Shown here: positions 37,865 through 50,118 of the stretch, one piece after another
How the letters are laid out: every line of letters starts with the position of its first letter
Numbering within the stretch: position 1 is the first letter of the stretch
Assembly (NCBI GenBank): GCA_001724025.1
Contig: MEDJ01000024.1
Span: 88,225 to 152,224 of the forward strand
Direction of reading: 5' to 3'
DNA length: 64,000 nucleotides
Source: Acidobacteria bacterium SCN 69-37
Lineage (GTDB): Bacteria > Acidobacteriota > Vicinamibacteria > Vicinamibacterales > SCN-69-37
Program-made: the position numbers and the translations under genes
The notes under the pieces: model-generated
Databases searched by the model: none
What the model was told of the DNA's origin: nothing
Seen by the model: the letters and a program-made list of their open reading frames with translations, nothing else

Positions 37865-39385
37865 TTATCCCAGGAACAGCGAGTACGCCGGATTGTCCGA
37901 TTCGCGTTCGTAGCGATACCCGAGCGTGTCGAGGAACGACTGGAACGCGTCCTCGTCGGTGGCCGGCACTTCCAGTCCGGTGAACACACGACCGGGGTCG
38001 GCACCGTGGTTGCGGTAGTGGAAGAGGCTGATGTTCCAGCGATCGCCGAGCGCGTCGAGGAACTTCATCAGGGCGCCCGGCCGCTCCGGAAACTCGAAGC
38101 GGCAGAGGACCTCGCGTTCGACCTCCGGACTCCGACCGCCCACCATGTGGCGCACGTGCAGCTTCGCGAGCTCGTTGTCCGACAGGTCCGTTGTCGCGTA
38201 TCCGCGTGCCGTCAACGTTTCGGCCAGCGCCGTCGCGTCCTGCCGCGAGGCAATCGCCACGCCCACGAAGATGTGGGCCGCGCGTCGACCGCTGAGGCGA
38301 TAGTTGAACTCCGTCACGACGCGCCGGCCGATGGTGGCGCAGAACTCGCGGAACGCGCCGGGCCGTTCCGGAATCGTGACGGCGAGCAGGGCCTCGCGCG
38401 CCTCGCCCATCTCCGCACGCTCGACGACGAAGCGGAGCCGATCGAAGTTCATGTTCGCGCCGCTCAGCACGGCTGCCAGACGCGCACCCGTCGTGCCCGT
38501 GCGCCCGACCCAGCGTCGCAGACCGGCGACCGCCAGCGCGCCGGCCGGCTCGGTGATCGATCGCGTGTCGTCGAACACGTCCTTGATGGCCGCGCAGATC
38601 TCGTCGTTCGAGACCAGCACGATCTCGTCGACCACCTGCCGCGCCAGATCGAACGTGTGCACGCCAACGTCGCGCACCGCCACGCCGTCCGCGAAGATGC
38701 CGACCTGCTCGAGCGACACGCGATGGCCCGCGTGCAGGGAACGGTGCATCGCATCGGCTTCGAAAGGCTCGACGCCGATGACTTTGATGGCCGGCTTCAG
38801 CGTCTTGATGTAGCTGCCGATGCCCGCGATCAGCCCGCCGCCCCCGATGGGCACGAAGATGGCGTCGATGTCGCCCGATCGGTGCCTGAGGATTTCGGTG
38901 GCGATCGTGCCCTGGCCCGCAATCACGAGCGGATCGTCGAACGGCGGGATGTAGGTGCGGCCGGTCTCGCGCGTGAGTGTCTCGCAGTGCGCGCGGGCGT
39001 CATCGAAACTGTCGCCGACGAGCACGACCTCGGCGCCCATGTGCCGGACGGCCTGGACCTTGATGGCCGGCGTCGTCTGCGGCATCACGATGACGGCGTC
39101 GAGGCCCAGGTGCCGCGCCGCGAAGGCGACGCCCTGCGCGTGATTGCCCGCGCTCGCCGTGATCACGCCGCGCGCGCGCTCGTCGATCGACAGGTGCGCG
39201 ATGCGGTTGTAGGCGCCGCGGATCTTGAAGCTGAAGACCGGCTGCAGGTCCTCGCGTTTGAGCAGCACCGTGCTGCCGAGCCTGCGCGACAGGCGCGGTG
39301 CGTCGTCGAGCGGCGTCTCTTCGGCCACGTCGTACACGCGGCTGGTGAGGATCAGGCGAAGCAGCGAGTCGAGGGTGAGGGACAT
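37865..39385 (-). CDS. ilvA: Threonine ammonia-lyase, biosynthetic type
   Basis: 506 residues, the long regulated form. The PLP lysine lies in FSFKIRGAYNR, SAGNHAQGVAFAA is the phosphate-binding region, and GGGGLIAGIG follows. The C-terminal ~170 residues hold two ACT-like domains (PERPGAFREFC and PERPGALMKFL) that bind isoleucine/valine. It makes 2-oxobutanoate for isoleucine. It lies 79 bases after thrA on the same strand, so threonine synthesis and the first isoleucine step are probably transcribed together under the leader attenuator. Confidence 0.92.
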   Translation of the reverse strand: MSLTLDSLLRLILTSRVYDVAEETPLDDAPRLSRRLGSTVLLKREDLQPVFSFKIRGAYNRIAHLSIDERARGVITASAGNHAQGVAFAARHLGLDAVIVMPQTTPAIKVQAVRHMGAEVVLVGDSFDDARAHCETLTRETGRTYIPPFDDPLVIAGQGTIATEILRHRSGDIDAIFVPIGGGGLIAGIGSYIKTLKPAIKVIGVEPFEADAMHRSLHAGHRVSLEQVGIFADGVAVRDVGVHTFDLARQVVDEIVLVSNDEICAAIKDVFDDTRSITEPAGALAVAGLRRWVGRTGTTGARLAAVLSGANMNFDRLRFVVERAEMGEAREALLAVTIPERPGAFREFCATIGRRVVTEFNYRLSGRRAAHIFVGVAIASRQDATALAETLTARGYATTDLSDNELAKLHVRHMVGGRSPEVEREVLCRFEFPERPGALMKFLDALGDRWNISLFHYRNHGADPGRVFTGLEVPATDEDAFQSFLDTLGYRYERESDNPAYSLFLG

Positions 39386-39464: not shown

Positions 39465-41999
39465 CTACCGCGTCGACAGCGACAGGATGTCGTTGAGGAT
39501 GCCCGCAGCCGTGACGGCCGGGCCGGCGCCGGGCCCGCTCACCACGAGCGGCTCGGCGCGGTACCGGCGGGTCGTGAACGCCACCAGGTTGCGCGTGCCC
39601 TGCAGCGCGCCGATCGGGCTCGTGACCGGTACCGCGGCCAGCGTGGCCGAGACCGACGTGGCCGTCGCAGTCACCACGTACCGCAACACCCGTCCCCTGG
39701 CGGCCTCGCGCTGTGTCCGCTCGGCCCAGTTCGCATCGAGCGACGGCAGCCGCTGCATGAACTCGTCGAGCGTCAGCCTGGCGAACGACGACGGCACGAG
39801 GTTCTCGGGGACGGCGGCCGGCCCGCGATAGCCCATCAGGCGCGCGAGGATCAGTACCTTGCGGCCGGCATCGGCGCCCGATAGATCTTCGCGCGGATCC
39901 GGTTCGGCGTAACCGAGCTCGACGGCCTCGCGCACCGCCTGCGAAAACGGCGTGCCCGACGACACGGCCGAGACGACGTACATCAGCGTGCCGCTCACCG
40001 ATCCCTCGATGCGCCGCACGCGATCGCCGGTCTCGGCGAGCTTGCAGTACGTGTCGATGATCGGCAGGCCGGCGCCGACGGTTGCTTCGTATTTGATCTG
40101 GCGACCGGACGTCTCAGCCGCCGCCATCAGCGCCGCGTACGACTCGTACGATCCGGCCACCGGCTTCTTGTTGGCCATGACCACGTGGAAGCCGTGCCCG
40201 AGCGCCGTGTGCAGCAGGTCGCCCGTGTCTTCGCTCGTGACGTCGACGAGCACCGGCTCCGATACCGCATGGCTCGCCATCATCGTCAGGGCCTCGGCCG
40301 CCGAGGCCTTGTGGCCGCCGAGCGTCGAGAGCAGACGGCCGCGATCCTTCTCGCGTGCGAGGGCGAGCAGGCGCCGCCGCGAAATCCCGCGCGGATCGAA
40401 CACATAGCCCGAACGATCCAGCAGCCCGACGACGCGCACCGCGTGGCCATTCGTGGGACTGGCAATCTGATCGGCCAGTTCCCGGCCCACGCGGCCGAAA
40501 CCGAGCAGCACGACATCGGTGTGCGGACGGGTGAGCGGCCGACCGCCGCCGATCTTCGACAGCTGGAACGCGGCGTGGACGCGGCGGACGGCGTCGGCCG
40601 CGTCATCCTCGCCCACGACGAACGAGATGTTGCGCTCCGACGATCCCTGCGCGATGGCGACGACGCTGATGCCCGCCGAGGCGAGCGACGAGAACACCCG
40701 CGCGGCAATGCCCGGCGCGCCGACCATGCCATCGCCGACCACGGCCACCACGGCCACGGAGGTGCGCGCCGTGACGTGATCGATCAGGCCGTTGGCCAGT
40801 TCATCCCTGAACGTGCGGCGGATGGCGTCGACAGCGCGTTCGGCCTGCGATGCCGGCAGCGTGAATCCGATCGAGCTCTCGGACGAGGCCTGGAAGATCG
40901 TCGACACCGAGACTCGCTCGGCATCGACAGCGGTGAACGTGCGCGCCGCGATGCCGTGCACGCCGGCCATGCCCTTGCCGGCCACGGTGACGACCGCCTG
41001 ATCGCGGACCACGGCCACGGCCTTGACGGGGTGTCCCGGATCGCCGCGGCGCGCCGACACCTCGGTGCCCGGCAGCGCGGTGTCGATGAACGAGCGGACG
41101 CGCAGCACGATGCGCGTCCCGTCGAGCGGGATGAGCGCGCGCGGGTGCAGCACCTTTGCACCGTAGTACGCCACCTCGGCTGCCTCGCGGTGGTGCAGGT
41201 GCGGGATCAGGCGCGCGTCTGGCACCAGGCGCGGATCGCTCGTCAGGATGCCGCGGACGTCCTTCCAGAGCACGGCGTCGGCGGCGCCGAGCGCGCGCGC
41301 GAGCGTGGTGGCCGTCAGATCCGATCCGCCGCGCCCGAGCGTGGTCACCGTGTGATCCGGACCGCGGCCGATGAACCCGGGTACGACGGCCAGTACCCGT
41401 CTGGCGAGCAGCGGCCTGATGGCCTGCCGGGCCGCGCGCGTGGATTCCGGGATGAGCGGCGCCGCGCCGCCGTGCAGGCCGTCGGTGACGATGACCTCGA
41501 CGCCGTCGACGAACGCCGCCTTCCGGCCGAGGCCGGCGACCACGGCAGCCAGGATCGACGCCGACAACCGTTCGCCGCGCGACACGATCCTGTCGCTCGC
41601 GCGCGCCTCGATGTGGCCGAGCACCTGGACCGCGGCGGAGAGATCGCGGTACTCCCGTTCGGCGATGTCGATGGAGGCGAGCAGCGAACGTCGCGCCGGG
41701 CCGGAGGCGACCAGAGCCGTGACGACCTTGCGGTGGCGCGCAAAGATCTTCTGCGCCACCTTCGCGGCTTCTCGGTCGTCGCCGCTCACGGCCAGCCGCG
41801 CGCCCTCGAGGAGCTGGTCGGTGACGCCGGACATGGCCGAGCAGACCACGACCAGCGGTCCCTCGTGTGCCGCGATCAGCTCCGCGGCCTTATGGATGGC
41901 CGGGGCATCGGCCAGCGACGCGCCGCCGAACTTCCACACCGACAGGCGGCTGGCCGCCGGCTTCGGCCTGCCGGCCTGTTTGCGCGGGCGGTCGCTCAT
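39465..41999 (-). CDS. thrA: Bifunctional aspartate kinase / homoserine dehydrogenase
   Basis: 844 residues. The N-terminal aspartokinase has [12 protein letters not shown] and [13 protein letters not shown]. Two ACT domains follow ([17 protein letters not shown] and [17 protein letters not shown]). A Rossmann-type homoserine dehydrogenase then begins [17 protein letters not shown] and includes NKKPVAGSY and [13 protein letters not shown], the catalytic region, followed by SGTLMYV. It catalyses steps one and three from aspartate to threonine/methionine. Its ATG overlaps the stop of the upstream threonine-synthase-like gene (ATGA). Confidence 0.93.
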
Positions 42000-43342
42000 G
42001 ATCGTGTCGCCTTCGCGGCCGCGGCGTCGTCGATCGCGCGGCGCACGGCGTCGTAGTCGTTCGGCAGTTCGATGGGCGCGTTCGCGTAGCGTCGGCGCGC
42101 GGTGCCCGTGGCCGTGTGGTACGCGATCTTGAACTCGGCGAACTTCAGACCGGCGGCCGTCGAGATGACGACCACGCGGTCGTCGCGCCGGATGTCGCCG
42201 CGGGCCACGAGCTTCTCGAGCGCGGCGAGCGCCACGCCCGTGTGCGGGCAGTTGAACATGCCCGTCAAATCCGCGCGCGCGGCGGCATCGGCCAGTTCCG
42301 CTTCCGACGCCTGCTCGACGATGCCGTCGTAGCGCTGGAGCGTCGCGATCGCCTTGCGGATCGATACCGGGTTGCCGATGCGGATGGCCGAGGCGAGCGT
42401 CGCCCGTGCGGTGATCGGCTCGAACTGCCAGTTGTTCCTGTAGGCGCGGTAGAGCGGGTTGGCCGCTTCGGCCTGCGCGACGACGATGCGTGGCCGCTTG
42501 TCGATCAGGCCGAGGTCGTGCATCAGGTCGAAGCCGGCGCCGAGTGCGCTGACGTTCCCCAGGTTGCCGCCGGGGATGATCACCCAGTCGGGGACCTGCC
42601 AGTCGAACTGCTGGACGATCTCGACCGAGATGGTCTTCTGGCCCTCGATGCGGAGGCTGTTCATGGAGTTGGCGAGGTAGACGCCTTCTTCCCTGACGAG
42701 CCGCTGGACGATCTTCATGCAGCCGTCGAAGTCCGTGTCGAGTGCCAGCACGCTGGCGCCGTTCGACAGCGGCTGCACGAGCTGTGCGGGGCTGACGAGG
42801 CCCCGGGGCAGGAAGACGATCGCCGGGATGCCGGCCGAGGCCGCAAAGGCGGCGAGTGCCGCCGACGTATCACCGGTCGAGGCGCACGCCACGGCGCGCA
42901 CGGGCGAGCCATTGGCCATCATCTGCTTGACGACCGAGACCAGCACGGTCATCCCCAGGTCCTTGAACGATCCGGTGTGCGAGTTGCCGCACATCTTCAC
43001 CCAGAGATCATCGAGGCCGAGTTCGTGGCCGTAGCGTTCGGCCCAGAAGAGGTTCGTACCGCCCTCGTCCATCGACACGATGTTGTCGTTGCGCAGTTCG
43101 GGGCAGACCCACTCCTTCTTGCCCCAGACGCCGGAGCCGTACGGCCACGTCGTGTGCTTGTAGCGTTCCTCGAACAGGCGCATCCAGCTCGTCGGTCCGC
43201 GCTTCTTCAGCGCCGGGACGTCGTGGACCACCTGCAGCAGGTCGCCGCAGGTCGGACAGTTGTAGATCGGCTGCCAGATCGAGTGATCGCCCGGACACCC
43301 GGCCGCACACCGGAATACCGCCTTGAAGACCGGCTCGCTCAT
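41996..43342 (-). CDS. Threonine synthase-like PLP enzyme (second copy)
   Basis: 448 residues. An N-terminal zinc-ribbon-like segment ([10 protein letters not shown] and CPTCGDLL) is followed by the fold type II PLP core. The Schiff-base lysine is in [28 protein letters not shown] binds phosphate, and [16 protein letters not shown] lies near the C-terminal half. The family converts phosphohomoserine to threonine. A second, clearly different threonine synthase gene sits directly upstream with a 4-base overlap, so this copy may be specialised (a related phosphorylated substrate is possible). The start at 43342 follows family N-termini. Confidence 0.85.
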
Positions 43343-44577
43343 CGCTGACCTCCTGCCTGAGTGCCCATGGCTGCCTCGAAGTCGGCCAGGGATCGGCCGA
43401 TGTGAATGGGAACCGGCCCGCGGCCGTGCAGCGCCTCGACCGTCTTGTAGCCGTTGCCCGTGATGCAGATCACGATCGACTCGTCGGGCGGGATCACGCC
43501 GCGTTCGATCAGCTGTTTGGTGGCGGCCACCGTCACGCCGCCGGCCGGCTCGGTGAAGATGCCCTCCGTCTCGGCCAGCAATTCGATGCCGTCGAGGATG
43601 GCGTCTTCGCCAACCATCGCCCCGGCACCGCCCGTGGAACGTATGGCGCTGACGACCTGGAAGCCGTCGGCCGGGTTGCCGATGGCAATCGACTTCGCGA
43701 TCGTGTCGGGCTTGACGGGATCGGGGAACTCGAGGCCCTCGTCGAGCGCCTTGACGACAGGAGCACAACCGGCTGCCTGTGCGGCGTAGACACGCGGCTC
43801 CTCACCCTCGACCAGGCCGAGCGATCGGAATTCGTTGATGCCCTTCAGGATGCGCGGCAGCAGCGTGCCGCCGGCCACGGGCGAGACGATGTGCCGTGGC
43901 AGCGTCCAGCCGAGCTGTTCGACGATCTCGAAGCCGTACGTTTTCGCGCCCTCGGCATAGTAGGCGCGCAGGTTGATGTTGGCGAAGCCCCAACCGTACT
44001 GATCGGCGACCTGCGTGCACAGCCGGTTCACGTCGTCGTAGTTGCCGCGGACCGCGATGATGCGCGGGTTGTAGACCGCGGCGCCGGTGACCTTGCCCGG
44101 CTCGAGGTTGTCGGGGATGAAGACGGAGCAGTCGAGGCCGAGCCTGGCCGCGTGCGACGCCACGCTGCCGGCGAGGTTGCCCGTCGACGCGCACGCGAAC
44201 ATGGTGAAGCCGAGTTCCACGGCGCGCGTGGCCGCGACCGAGACCACCCGATCCTTGTACGAACAGGTGGGGTGGTTCACCGAGTCGTCCTTGACGTAGA
44301 GCTCGCGGACGCCGAGGCGCTTCGCGAGGCGATCGGCCTTGACGAGCGGCGTGAACCCGGAGTGCAGGCCGGTGCGCGGCTCGCCCTCGATGGGCAGCAG
44401 CGGGCGATAGCGCCAGATGCTGCGCGGGCCGGCAGCAATCGACTCGCGCGAGATCTGCAGTTTCACCGCGTCATAGTCGAAGTGCACCTCGAGCGGTCCC
44501 ATACACTTGTCGCACACGAACAGGGCGGTGGCGGGGAACGGGGCGTGGCAGACGTGGCAGCGGAGACTGAAGGTCAT
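43339..44577 (-). CDS. thrC: Threonine synthase (first copy)
   Basis: 412 residues. A four-cysteine zinc ribbon (CHVCHAPF and CDKCMGPL) leads into a threonine synthase core with [17 protein letters not shown] lysine in [16 protein letters not shown], phosphate loop [15 protein letters not shown], and a C-terminal [11 protein letters not shown]. It resembles the archaeal/cyanobacterial-type enzyme. ATG at 44577 chosen for the MTFSLRC start. It is flanked by thrB (72 bases upstream) and the second copy (overlap 4 bases). Confidence 0.87.
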
Positions 44578-44649: not shown

Positions 44650-45582
44650 CTAGGGTGACGGCATGGCACGGGCCGTGCCCACGGGCGGCCTGGCCGAGAG
44701 CGTGCGGATCGTGGACGGAATCCCGATCGCGTCGTAGACGCCGCACAGCGCCGACGCCGCGTCCGCCTGGCGGCCCGGCGCGGCCACGACGGCAATCGAC
44801 GGGCCGGCGCCGCTGAGGCAGACACCGAGGACGGCGGGATGATCGAGCGCGAGTGCCTGCGTCAGGCCGGGGACGTACTGCGCGCGGGCCGGCTGATGCC
44901 AGCGGTCGCGCAGCGCCTCGCGCAGCAGATCGTAGCGGCCGCTCTCGAGCGCGCGCACGAGCAGCAGCGATCGCTGCAGGTTGAACACCGCGTCGCGCCT
45001 GGCGATCTCCGGCGACAGCACCTGGCGTGCGAACGCGGTCTCGAGTTCCACCCGCGGCGTGCCGACGATCAGGCCGAGGTCGGCCGGCCAGGCCCACGCC
45101 GACGTCAGAATGCGGCCGTCCTCGCACTGGCAGCTCAGCGTGAGACCGCCAAGCAGCGCGGCGGCCGCGTTGTCCGGGTGTCCCTCGATCTCGGTGGCGA
45201 TCCGCATGATCACTTCGGGATCGCGCGGTGTCGTCAGCGCTTCGTACAGCTTCAGGCCGGCGACCGTGGCCGCTGAACTGCTGCCGAGGCCGGCCTTCAT
45301 CGGGATGCCCGTGGTGACGTGGACGCGGGCCCGGCGCGGGCGATCGCCGAAGTGCGCCAGCGCGCGCGTGAACCCCGTGACGATGCGGTTTTCGCCCGAC
45401 GCGGGCACCTGGCCTTCGACCACGATCGCGTCGGCGTCGCTGGTGACGGGACCGATCTCGTCGATCCGCACCCGGAGGTCGACGTCGACGGCCACGCTCA
45501 GGGCGTCGAACGCCGGGCCGAGGTTGCTGATCGAGCCCGAGACGACGATCTCGTGGCCCGCGCTGACGGGTGATGCGGTCAT
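44650..45582 (-). CDS. thrB: Homoserine kinase
   Basis: 310-residue GHMP kinase. The ATP-binding motif GIPMKAGLGSSSAATVAG lies near residue 90; the N-terminal substrate strand SISNLGPAFDALSVAV and the C-terminal LSGAGPSIAVVAAP are both typical of ThrB. It phosphorylates homoserine for the threonine synthases downstream. It is the first structural gene after the leader peptide and attenuator. A 22-base palindromic repeat (45595-45616) sits in its 5' untranslated region. Confidence 0.92.
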   Translation of the reverse strand: MTASPVSAGHEIVVSGSISNLGPAFDALSVAVDVDLRVRIDEIGPVTSDADAIVVEGQVPASGENRIVTGFTRALAHFGDRPRRARVHVTTGIPMKAGLGSSSAATVAGLKLYEALTTPRDPEVIMRIATEIEGHPDNAAAALLGGLTLSCQCEDGRILTSAWAWPADLGLIVGTPRVELETAFARQVLSPEIARRDAVFNLQRSLLLVRALESGRYDLLREALRDRWHQPARAQYVPGLTQALALDHPAVLGVCLSGAGPSIAVVAAPGRQADAASALCGVYDAIGIPSTIRTLSARPPVGTARAMPSP

Positions 45583-45656: not shown

Positions 45657-45688
45657 AAAAAAAAAGCCGGCCCTCGTTCGAGGCCGGC
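45657..45688 (-). terminator. Attenuator terminator of the thr operon
   Basis: On the minus strand GCCGGCCTC-GAAC-GAGGGCCGGC (45666-45688) forms a stem of at least seven G-C pairs and is followed by nine T (45657-45665). It stands between the leader peptide stop and thrB, so it must be read through or prevented for thrB expression. Its 5' arm is exactly complementary to 45746-45754 within the leader peptide codons. Confidence 0.85.
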
Positions 45689-45720
45689 GAGTGCTGTCTC
45701 AGGGCTCGGAGCGTTCCTTG

Positions 45721-45819
45721 TCAGGCGATCCGAGCGACACCACTACCGGCCTCGCGGCCCTTCATGGTCCGCGTCGTCTTCTGCATCGTAATGGCCGTGA
45801 TCCGCGCGCCGGTCGACAT
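45721..45819 (-). CDS. thrL: thr operon leader peptide
   Basis: A 32-codon gene. Residues 3-18 hold six Thr and two Ile (..ARITAITMQKTTRTMK..). The peptide is followed by the attenuator hairpin and then by thrB-thrC-thrC2-thrA-ilvA, whose end products are exactly threonine and isoleucine. The start codon lies about three bases after the predicted transcription start, so translation would be leaderless or nearly so. The composition resembles the enterobacterial thr leader peptide, but homology is not claimed. Function is inferred: a sensor of charged Thr-tRNA and Ile-tRNA. Confidence 0.75.
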   Translation of the reverse strand: MSTGARITAITMQKTTRTMKGREAGSGVARIA

Positions 45820-45828
45820 CGCCTTGGA

Positions 45829-45858
45829 AGTATAGGGCGCCGTCGCCGGGGGGGTCAA
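45829..45858 (-). promoter_or_regulatory. Sigma70-like promoter of the thr operon
   Basis: TTGACC (45853-45858) and TATACT (45829-45834) on the minus strand are separated by 18 bases. The predicted start is about 45822, just before the leader peptide ATG at 45819. This is the clearest promoter in the window. Confidence 0.75.
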
Positions 45859-46019: not shown

Positions 46020-47201
46020 TCAGGACGACGAGCGCTGAGTGTGAACGGCGGCGAGCAGCGCTTCGACGCGCGCCATGACGGTGGGCCAGCGGTACTCGCG
46101 TTCGACGTACGCGAGTCCCTGGTGCCCGAATCGCCGTGACGCCTCGGGGTGATCGAGCAGCCACGACAGCCCGGCGGCGAACTCGCGATACGTGCCGTAA
46201 TACAGGCCGCCGCCCGCGCGTTCCACCTGCCCCTTGAGCACGGCGCAGCGCGCGTTGACGAGCGCCGGCAGGCCGTGGTTCCACGCCTCGAGCAGCGCGA
46301 TGCACAGACTTTCGTATGGGGACGGCATCACGAGCGCCCGCGCGTGGGTGAGCAGCGCATCGCGCACGTCGTCGGTCACGAACCCGAGCACGCGCACGCG
46401 CGGATGCGACGCCAGTGCGGCGTGCACCGGCCCCGCCAGCACGAGCGTGACGTCGCGCGACTCGGCCTGCTGATAGCGGATGAAGTGATCGACGAGCCTG
46501 TCGCAGCCCTTGTTGCGATCGACACGGCCCACGTACACGACGAACGGATCGACGAGGCCGAGCGGTGCGAGCACCGCGATCGGCGCGGCCGGCGCGGGAT
46601 CGAGCCCCGTGCCGATCACCGTCGACGGACCGATGGATCCGCCCGCGCGCGTCGTCACCAGGGTGCGTTCCTCGTCGGTCAGGAAGATGTACCCGCGCGG
46701 CTGCTGGAAATAGTCGGCGAGTATCGCGAAGTCGAGCACCTCGTCTTCCTCGGCCGTGGGCACGAGCACCGATCGATCCGCCACGACGGGCAGGCCGATG
46801 ATGCTGGGGACGTAGCGGAACGCCCAGAACAGGATGAGGTCGTACTCGTGGCCGTGCGCGGCGAGATGGGCGATCAACCCGGGCGTATCCGGGCCGTTGG
46901 CCTCGAACCACGCACGCTCGTCCTCGATCGTGTGTCGCCGGGCGAAGGCGCGCTCGCTCGCCTCGGCAAACCGGTGCAGGTGCCGCTGGCGCGCCACGCG
47001 GAAGCGCCGCACGCGTACGGGGCCCTCGGTCGACCAGCCCTCGGGTAGCGTGTTGCGCCAGTAGACGTAGTCCTCGGCACACGACGTGAGCACGTGCACC
47101 TCGTGGTGCGCGGCCAACCGCTCGGCCAGGTGCCGGCAGTGCGCTTCCGATCCACCCGTGACCGTGGCGCCGTAGCGCTGGACCACGCAGGCGATCTTCA
47201 T
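46020..47201 (-). CDS. GT4-family glycosyltransferase
   Basis: 393 residues. It starts MKIACVVQRYGATVTGGSEAHCRHLAE, the typical GT-B N-terminal loop. The C-terminal donor domain has FVVYVGRVDRNKGCDRLVDHF, RVRVLGFV and the nucleotide-sugar-binding PSPYESLCIALLEAW (E-x7-E). It probably adds a sugar to a surface polysaccharide or lipid; donor and acceptor are unknown. Its ATG overlaps the stop of the coiled-coil gene upstream (ATGA), indicating a functional pair. Confidence 0.88.
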   Translation of the reverse strand: MKIACVVQRYGATVTGGSEAHCRHLAERLAAHHEVHVLTSCAEDYVYWRNTLPEGWSTEGPVRVRRFRVARQRHLHRFAEASERAFARRHTIEDERAWFEANGPDTPGLIAHLAAHGHEYDLILFWAFRYVPSIIGLPVVADRSVLVPTAEEDEVLDFAILADYFQQPRGYIFLTDEERTLVTTRAGGSIGPSTVIGTGLDPAPAAPIAVLAPLGLVDPFVVYVGRVDRNKGCDRLVDHFIRYQQAESRDVTLVLAGPVHAALASHPRVRVLGFVTDDVRDALLTHARALVMPSPYESLCIALLEAWNHGLPALVNARCAVLKGQVERAGGGLYYGTYREFAAGLSWLLDHPEASRRFGHQGLAYVEREYRWPTVMARVEALLAAVHTQRSSS

Positions 47202-47671
47202 CGGGCGCCCGGGGCGCCGGGGGCGGGCGGCTGATTGGCCTTGAGCGCGTCGATCTCGCGCCGCAGCGTCGTCACCTCGACGACGAGCGTTTCGATGGCG
47301 CCCATCAGCGTGTCGTTCACCTGGTTCTGCCGCGCGAAGTTGTCGCGGGCGTAGTCGTACAGCCAGCGCGTGAGCGGCAGCAGGATGCGTTGCTTCGCGA
47401 ACAGGATCAGGCCGCCGGTCCGCCGGCGGTGGCTCGTCATCCCCAGCCGCGTCTCCAGCGTCCACTCGTGATCATCGAGCAGCAGGGCGGGCGCGAGCAG
47501 CATGCGCCGGCGCGCGAGGGCGCGTTGCAGAATGGCCTCGGCCTCCTCGAAGAGCGCGGCATCGACGAGCGGCGACTGCGGGTCCAGTCTGGCGATGTCG
47601 GCCCGCAGCCGCGCGCGGACGTGCGCCCGCACCTCGTTCATCGCGTCATCCACCGATTCCGGCTGGGTCAC
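47198..47671 (-). CDS. Coiled-coil protein coupled to the glycosyltransferase
   Basis: 157 residues, no signal peptide. The N-terminal half is charged and helical (MNEVRAHVRARLRADIARLD). An amphipathic segment (ILLPLTRWLYDYARDN) may touch membrane. The C-terminus is a heptad-like coiled coil (TLMGAIETLVVEVTTLRREI) ending in a Pro/Ala tail. Such small coiled-coil proteins often accompany glycan-assembly genes, but no function is known. GTG at 47671 chosen; an ATG at 47641 is also possible. Confidence 0.65.
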   Translation of the reverse strand: MTQPESVDDAMNEVRAHVRARLRADIARLDPQSPLVDAALFEEAEAILQRALARRRMLLAPALLLDDHEWTLETRLGMTSHRRRTGGLILFAKQRILLPLTRWLYDYARDNFARQNQVNDTLMGAIETLVVEVTTLRREIDALKANQPPAPGAPGAR

Positions 47672-48776: not shown

Positions 48777-48852
48777 GGACCCCGGAAGGCACCGGCTGTC
48801 GACGAGCCGTGCGTGTCAGGGGAGCGTTCGGTCGGTAGGATGCATGCAATAA

Positions 48853-50118
<1,266 letters not shown>

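Follow-up and report, generated by a model that had tools for sequence, protein, structure and literature searches.

The window, the whole 64,000-nucleotide stretch of DNA that we analyzed, lies on contig C24 of a 4.43-Mb acidobacterial genome (G000) and carries on its minus strand a leader region followed by the genes thrB-thrC-thrC-thrA-ilvA. The first gene, thrB (44650-45582, minus), encodes homoserine kinase and scores above the cut-off of TIGR00191. It is followed on the same strand by thrC1 (43339-44577), a threonine synthase gene, and thrC2 (41996-43345), a second threonine synthase-like gene, both above the cut-off of TIGR00260; by thrA (39465-41999), a fused aspartokinase/homoserine dehydrogenase with Pfam AA_kinase, ACT and Homoserine_dh domains; and by ilvA (37865-39385), a threonine dehydratase with a regulatory domain, in which PALP and two Thr_dehydrat_C domains were identified. 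These assignments agree with an earlier, sequence-only reading of the DNA, which had described an operon for threonine and, via ilvA, isoleucine. The two thrC genes (window 41996-44577) are tandem and divergent, being about 28% identical, and the pair is retained in three other genomes (G001, G003 and G005). On a contig labelled as a Chloroflexi metagenome-assembled genome (L093, JANWJD010000187.1), ThrC1 is 57% identical; misbinning or transfer is possible.

Every element of the leader region lies on the window's minus strand. The promoter TTGACC-N18-TATACT consists of a -35 hexamer at 45853-45858, which is identical and at the same distance in G001, a second species of the genus, and a -10 hexamer at 45829-45834, separated by an 18-nt spacer; it is the sole promoter-like site in the 900 bases scanned (mean in shuffles, 0.0). 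Nine nucleotides separate the -10 hexamer from the leader start codon in G000, G001 and a more distant genome, G024, and transcription is predicted to start at about 45822, ~3 nt before the leader AUG. The open reading frame that follows (45721-45819, ATG start) encodes a 32-codon leader peptide, MSTGARITAITMQKTTRTMKGREAGSGVARIA, with Thr at positions 3, 8, 11, 15, 16 and 18 and Ile at positions 7 and 10, plus a third Ile at 31; together Thr and Ile make up 9 of its 32 residues (p = 0.003). Between this frame and the start of thrB at 45582 sits an intrinsic terminator: a GC hairpin (45666-45688; -16.9 kcal/mol including the T run) directly followed by nine T (45657-45665). The string SSNSSNTTTTTTTT (GC, then T8) is found just once in the G000 genome, at the terminator of the thr operon, and just once in the G001 genome, at the counterpart terminator. 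Promoter, Thr/Ile-rich leader and nine-T terminator had all been proposed from the letters of the window, and all three are present as described.

The leader can form competing pairings. Segment 2 (45746-45755, codons 22-25) pairs with the 5' arm of the terminator, segment 3, in a 10-bp duplex of -22.5 kcal/mol, and it can also pair with segment 1 (ACCGGC, 45808-45813, codons 3-4), through positions 45746-45751; the latter duplex has -12.7 kcal/mol in G000 and -11.9 kcal/mol in G001. The resulting 2:3 antiterminator hairpin (45679-45754) contains the leader stop codon and, folded from codon 21 to the end of the terminator 5' arm, reaches -49.8 kcal/mol versus -16.9 kcal/mol for the 3:4 terminator; because it overlaps the terminator 5' arm, the two are mutually exclusive. 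The sequence-only reading had called 45746-45754 exactly complementary to that arm: the complementarity holds, but the exactness does not, since the nine positions form 8 Watson-Crick pairs and one G-U pair (10 pairs with 45755). Its competing six-base segment and its 1:2, 2:3 and 3:4 structures were recovered by folding.

To relate these pairings to translation, we masked a ribosome footprint at each leader codon and then calculated the terminator probability at equilibrium at 37 °C. In this model, the probability in G000 does not exceed 0.3 while the A site is at codons 2-18 and lies between 0.7 and 0.9 once it has reached codon 19, up to the stop; it averages 0.04 for ribosomes on the Thr/Ile codons versus 0.85 for those at codons 21-33. 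The switch falls directly after codon 18, the last Thr codon of what we take as the sensor (codons 3-18, 45766-45813, with six Thr and two Ile). It is robust to the size of the ribosome footprint, and none of 200 dinucleotide shuffles of the leader reached the real difference (maximum 0.47 vs 0.82). For G001, the modelled terminator forms except with the ribosome on codons 9-12 (ITTT), and Ile9 also shifts the switch. The default states of the two models differ: without a ribosome, the terminator probability is 0.01 in G000 (antitermination) versus 0.87 in G001 (termination). Two further leaders, those of G098 and G097, show a weak step only. Since the equilibrium probability is always about 1 for the leaders of family f2 described below and for Escherichia coli thrL, sequestration of segment 3 before the terminator is made was used there as a proxy. 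By this proxy, E. coli thrL, the positive control, has segment 3 sequestered until Thr15-Thr16 and then freed, and in most of the 11 Thr-type leaders segment 3 likewise stays sequestered until the ribosome has just passed the final Thr codon of the run. The folding calculations thus indicate that the sequence can switch by ribosome position.

Based on these findings, we propose that the leader is very probably a ribosome-mediated transcription attenuator sensing charged tRNA-Thr (and tRNA-Ile). We infer its start site, its translation and its physiological response. The transcript would begin ~3 nt before the leader AUG, and the ribosome would load, independently of a Shine-Dalgarno site, at the 5' end or close to it. 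When threonine (or isoleucine) is scarce, the ribosome would stall within codons 3-18 and leave segment 2 free; segment 2 would then pair with segment 3, allowing read-through into thrB-thrC-thrC-thrA-ilvA. When both amino acids are plentiful, the ribosome would enter codons 19-33 and cover both segment 2 and the antiterminator's 5' half, so that the 3:4 hairpin with its U9 would form and transcription would end, yielding an RNA of about 165 nt. This is the Thr/Ile attenuator of the sequence-only reading, which now draws support from the anatomy, the codon conservation, the recurring pairings and the modelled switch.

Thr-type leaders are found in relatives. G001, the one other species of the genus among the genomes compared, shares the promoter, the 9-nt gap and a terminator with T9; its leader peptide, MSTGGATTITTTKRIMRIRKAGGGVAPVAW, is changed but still has 6 Thr and 3 Ile among 30 residues, and the 3' half of the leader is conserved between the two species. 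In a genome of another family (G061), a Thr-run leader with TCTTTTITTGIC stands directly before thrB-thrC-thrA; in a third family, that of G024, a leader with MFAAQITITTTKKRSIKRIGRVGGVCELET (ITITTT) precedes an aspartokinase gene; and in 7 genomes of family f2, leaders with Thr runs, such as MQTHPSAATTIVITTTTCGVPRG, precede thrA. The (C)GGATGA shared by segment 2 of the f2 leaders includes the stop codon in six of the seven. Each of the 11 Thr-type leaders (G000, G001 and nine others) shows enrichment of Thr plus Ile (p = 0.003 to 0.0001). The conservation of Thr and Ile codons and the covariation in the hairpins, both of which the sequence-only reading had put forward as decisive, were thus found: the codons are kept in the 11 leaders while the peptide diverges, the exclusive pairings recur in relatives, and the terminator pairs of related leaders covary. 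A scan of genome contigs found four relatives only, among them G001. A covariance model built from two sequences (R1) and run over 162 genomes of the order gave two convincing matches beyond the genus (L133 and L134); most of the other, weak matches that we inspected lie inside coding sequence and were discarded. Two genomes of the same family as G000 (G003 and G005) have the thr operon and no leader, and no Thr leader was found at the thr operons of 12 further genomes of the order. The absence in G003 and G005 despite the operon implies that the element is dispensable and comes and goes.

Other explanations for the locus deserve consideration. A co-directional glycosyltransferase gene lies upstream on the same strand (46020-47465), with its end about 330 nt from the hairpin, which might therefore be a mere terminator of that gene, with the leader frame arising by chance. 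Against this, a conserved promoter lies between the two, the leader frame, its Thr/Ile codons and the antiterminator are kept in G001, Thr-rich leaders precede thr genes in two other families, and none of the 200 shuffles reproduces the modelled switch; we consider this explanation very improbable. No more weight can be given to a ligand-binding riboswitch, a T-box or a protein-controlled terminator acting in place of ribosome stalling. The stable 2:3 structure and the conserved 3' half of the leader would fit such a device, but what is kept in the sensor is codons rather than bases, Thr-richness persisting through 11 sequence-divergent leaders, and an Rfam scan of the region gave no match at the gathering score. 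The matches listed up to E = 10, among which the threonine operon leader model does not appear, are chance ones, the best being anti-hemB at 18.8 of the 49.5 bits needed.

It is harder to dismiss a working attenuator that responds to threonine only, with the Ile codons incidental, since Thr always outnumbers Ile and some of the leaders have a single Ile. Yet Ile occurs in 11 of the 11 Thr-type leaders, ilvA is inside the G000 operon, and Ile9 of G001 also shifts the modelled switch; on balance we find a response to threonine only unlikely, if a good deal less so than the two explanations above, and prefer an attenuator reading both amino acids.

The sequence-only reading had presented the element as an attenuator outside the enterobacteria, which is correct but understated, as its occurrences span the order and include positions ahead of thrA and asd-lysC. 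Inspecting the DNA ahead of aspartokinase genes in about 85 genomes from the order, we found a leader and terminator before asd-lysC in seven families; a covariance-model search added three more. One such homologous leader with a terminator lies before asd-lysC in the window's own genome (L114, G000:C2:37251-37419), and L198 and about 45 related loci, from at least ten families of the order, have the same arrangement. A covariance model built from 26 asd-lysC leaders (R2) matched 24 of 396 genomes of the phylum, all in the order of G000. R2 also matches the thr leader of G001, at 43 bits, and the thr and asd-lysC elements are therefore homologous. In the R2 set, four of the seven terminator pairs show changes on both sides, a result seen in 0 of 500 shuffles, and a general test for upstream pairing in the asd-lysC leaders was only moderately strong (24 of 55 at or below 5% of shuffles).

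The asd-lysC leaders mostly contain RKR..RKR, and some add Thr/Ile runs (TITITVTTRKR). Judged by their sequences, these leaders seem to sense Lys, a combination of Thr/Ile with Lys, or Met, and the sensor amino acids of the family, Arg excepted, are products of the aspartate pathway. The Met-rich leader MSMPMMAMRMTSIGGRIVSGP, found with a terminator before asd-lysC in yet another family (L303, G017:C6:36079-36216, minus), may be a methionine sensor. The modelled switch falls 0-2 codons after the last Lys in 18 of 37 asd-lysC leaders (null, 16%), among frames preselected for a KR/RK/KC motif, and is suggestive of Lys sensing. Because the start codons of these leaders were set by a rule based partly on the presence of KR/RK/KC, the case for lysine is weaker than that for threonine. 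The codons CGA AAG CGG are conserved at the nucleotide level in asd-lysC leaders, sometimes twice (e.g., L198:1222-1390). In a genome rich in GC, CGA is expected to be among the rare codons for Arg; the conservation could reflect a slow codon or a role of the RNA itself, as a GNRA-like C-GAAA-G loop.

The predicted near-leaderless start, which had been regarded as an oddity of the leader peptide, is instead a recurrent trait. The distance from the end of the -10 hexamer to the start codon, as predicted, is 9-11 nt in 31 of 41 measured asd-lysC leaders, and a Shine-Dalgarno-like site is present in 3 of 47. This short spacing and the rarity of Shine-Dalgarno sites point to near-leaderless initiation as a shared design of the family; if transcription starts at the usual distance from the -10 hexamer, the 5' leader would be a few bases long. 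Taking these observations together, we suggest that one homologous attenuator family governs the aspartate pathway across the order with its sensor codons exchanged: Thr/Ile before thr operons and, before asd-lysC, pairs of Arg-Lys-Arg (a lysine sensor), a mixture of Thr/Ile and Lys, or Met. Ribosomes loading at a nearly leaderless 5' end would read all of them. We regard this wider scheme as about equally likely to be right or wrong.

By the features tested, the G000 element appears to be a classical ribosome-mediated attenuator outside the Rfam threonine leader family. It recalls thrL of the E. coli thrABC operon in having a Thr/Ile codon run in a short leader, an antiterminator opposed to an intrinsic terminator and a thr operon downstream, and the two respond alike in the folding model. 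It differs from thrL in lacking a covariance-model relation, in its predicted near-leaderless start, in having thrB first and ilvA included, and in its leader of 32 codons, in which a long tail follows the sensor. Leaderless attenuators are known: in Sinorhizobium meliloti trpL (PMC7298713), the attenuator RNA begins at the leader start codon or right beside it, although that system concerns Trp, an alphaproteobacterium and a 14-aa leader of unrelated sequence. The polycysteine leaders of actinobacterial cys operons (PMC1262725) likewise place an amino-acid run before the matching biosynthetic gene, but a terminator hairpin is not reported there, and amino acid and phylum are others. Of additional note, a Cys-codon-rich leader (GCPCCRSC) with a terminator lies before a cysteine synthase gene in G000 itself (L121/L251, C13, about 48,850-49,083) and resembles these polycysteine peptides; similar Cys-rich leaders with terminators are present in G001, G003, G015 and G045 (L252, L254, L260 and L265).

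Lysine is read elsewhere by riboswitches, and we know of no leader-peptide attenuator that responds to it. A literature search found no description of the present attenuator family; the comparative studies of Lopatovskaya (2010) and Vitreschak (2004) could contain related predictions. A previous screen in Acidobacteria (PMC2965389) predicted attenuators, almost none with an assigned function; its main text lists neither threonine nor thrB. The new elements here are the phylum, a family that spans the order, sensor codons that seem to be exchanged among its members, and a probable sensor for lysine.

The findings provide a concrete attenuator system, with its amino acids assigned, for a phylum in which almost none has been functionally assigned (PMC2965389). 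They also offer a natural series of one RNA switch with seemingly different sensor codons, making the rule that the codons are the sensor testable within one lineage. Finally, they suggest that in this order classical attenuation goes hand in hand with leaderless ribosome loading, and that lysine, too, may be read by a leader peptide there.
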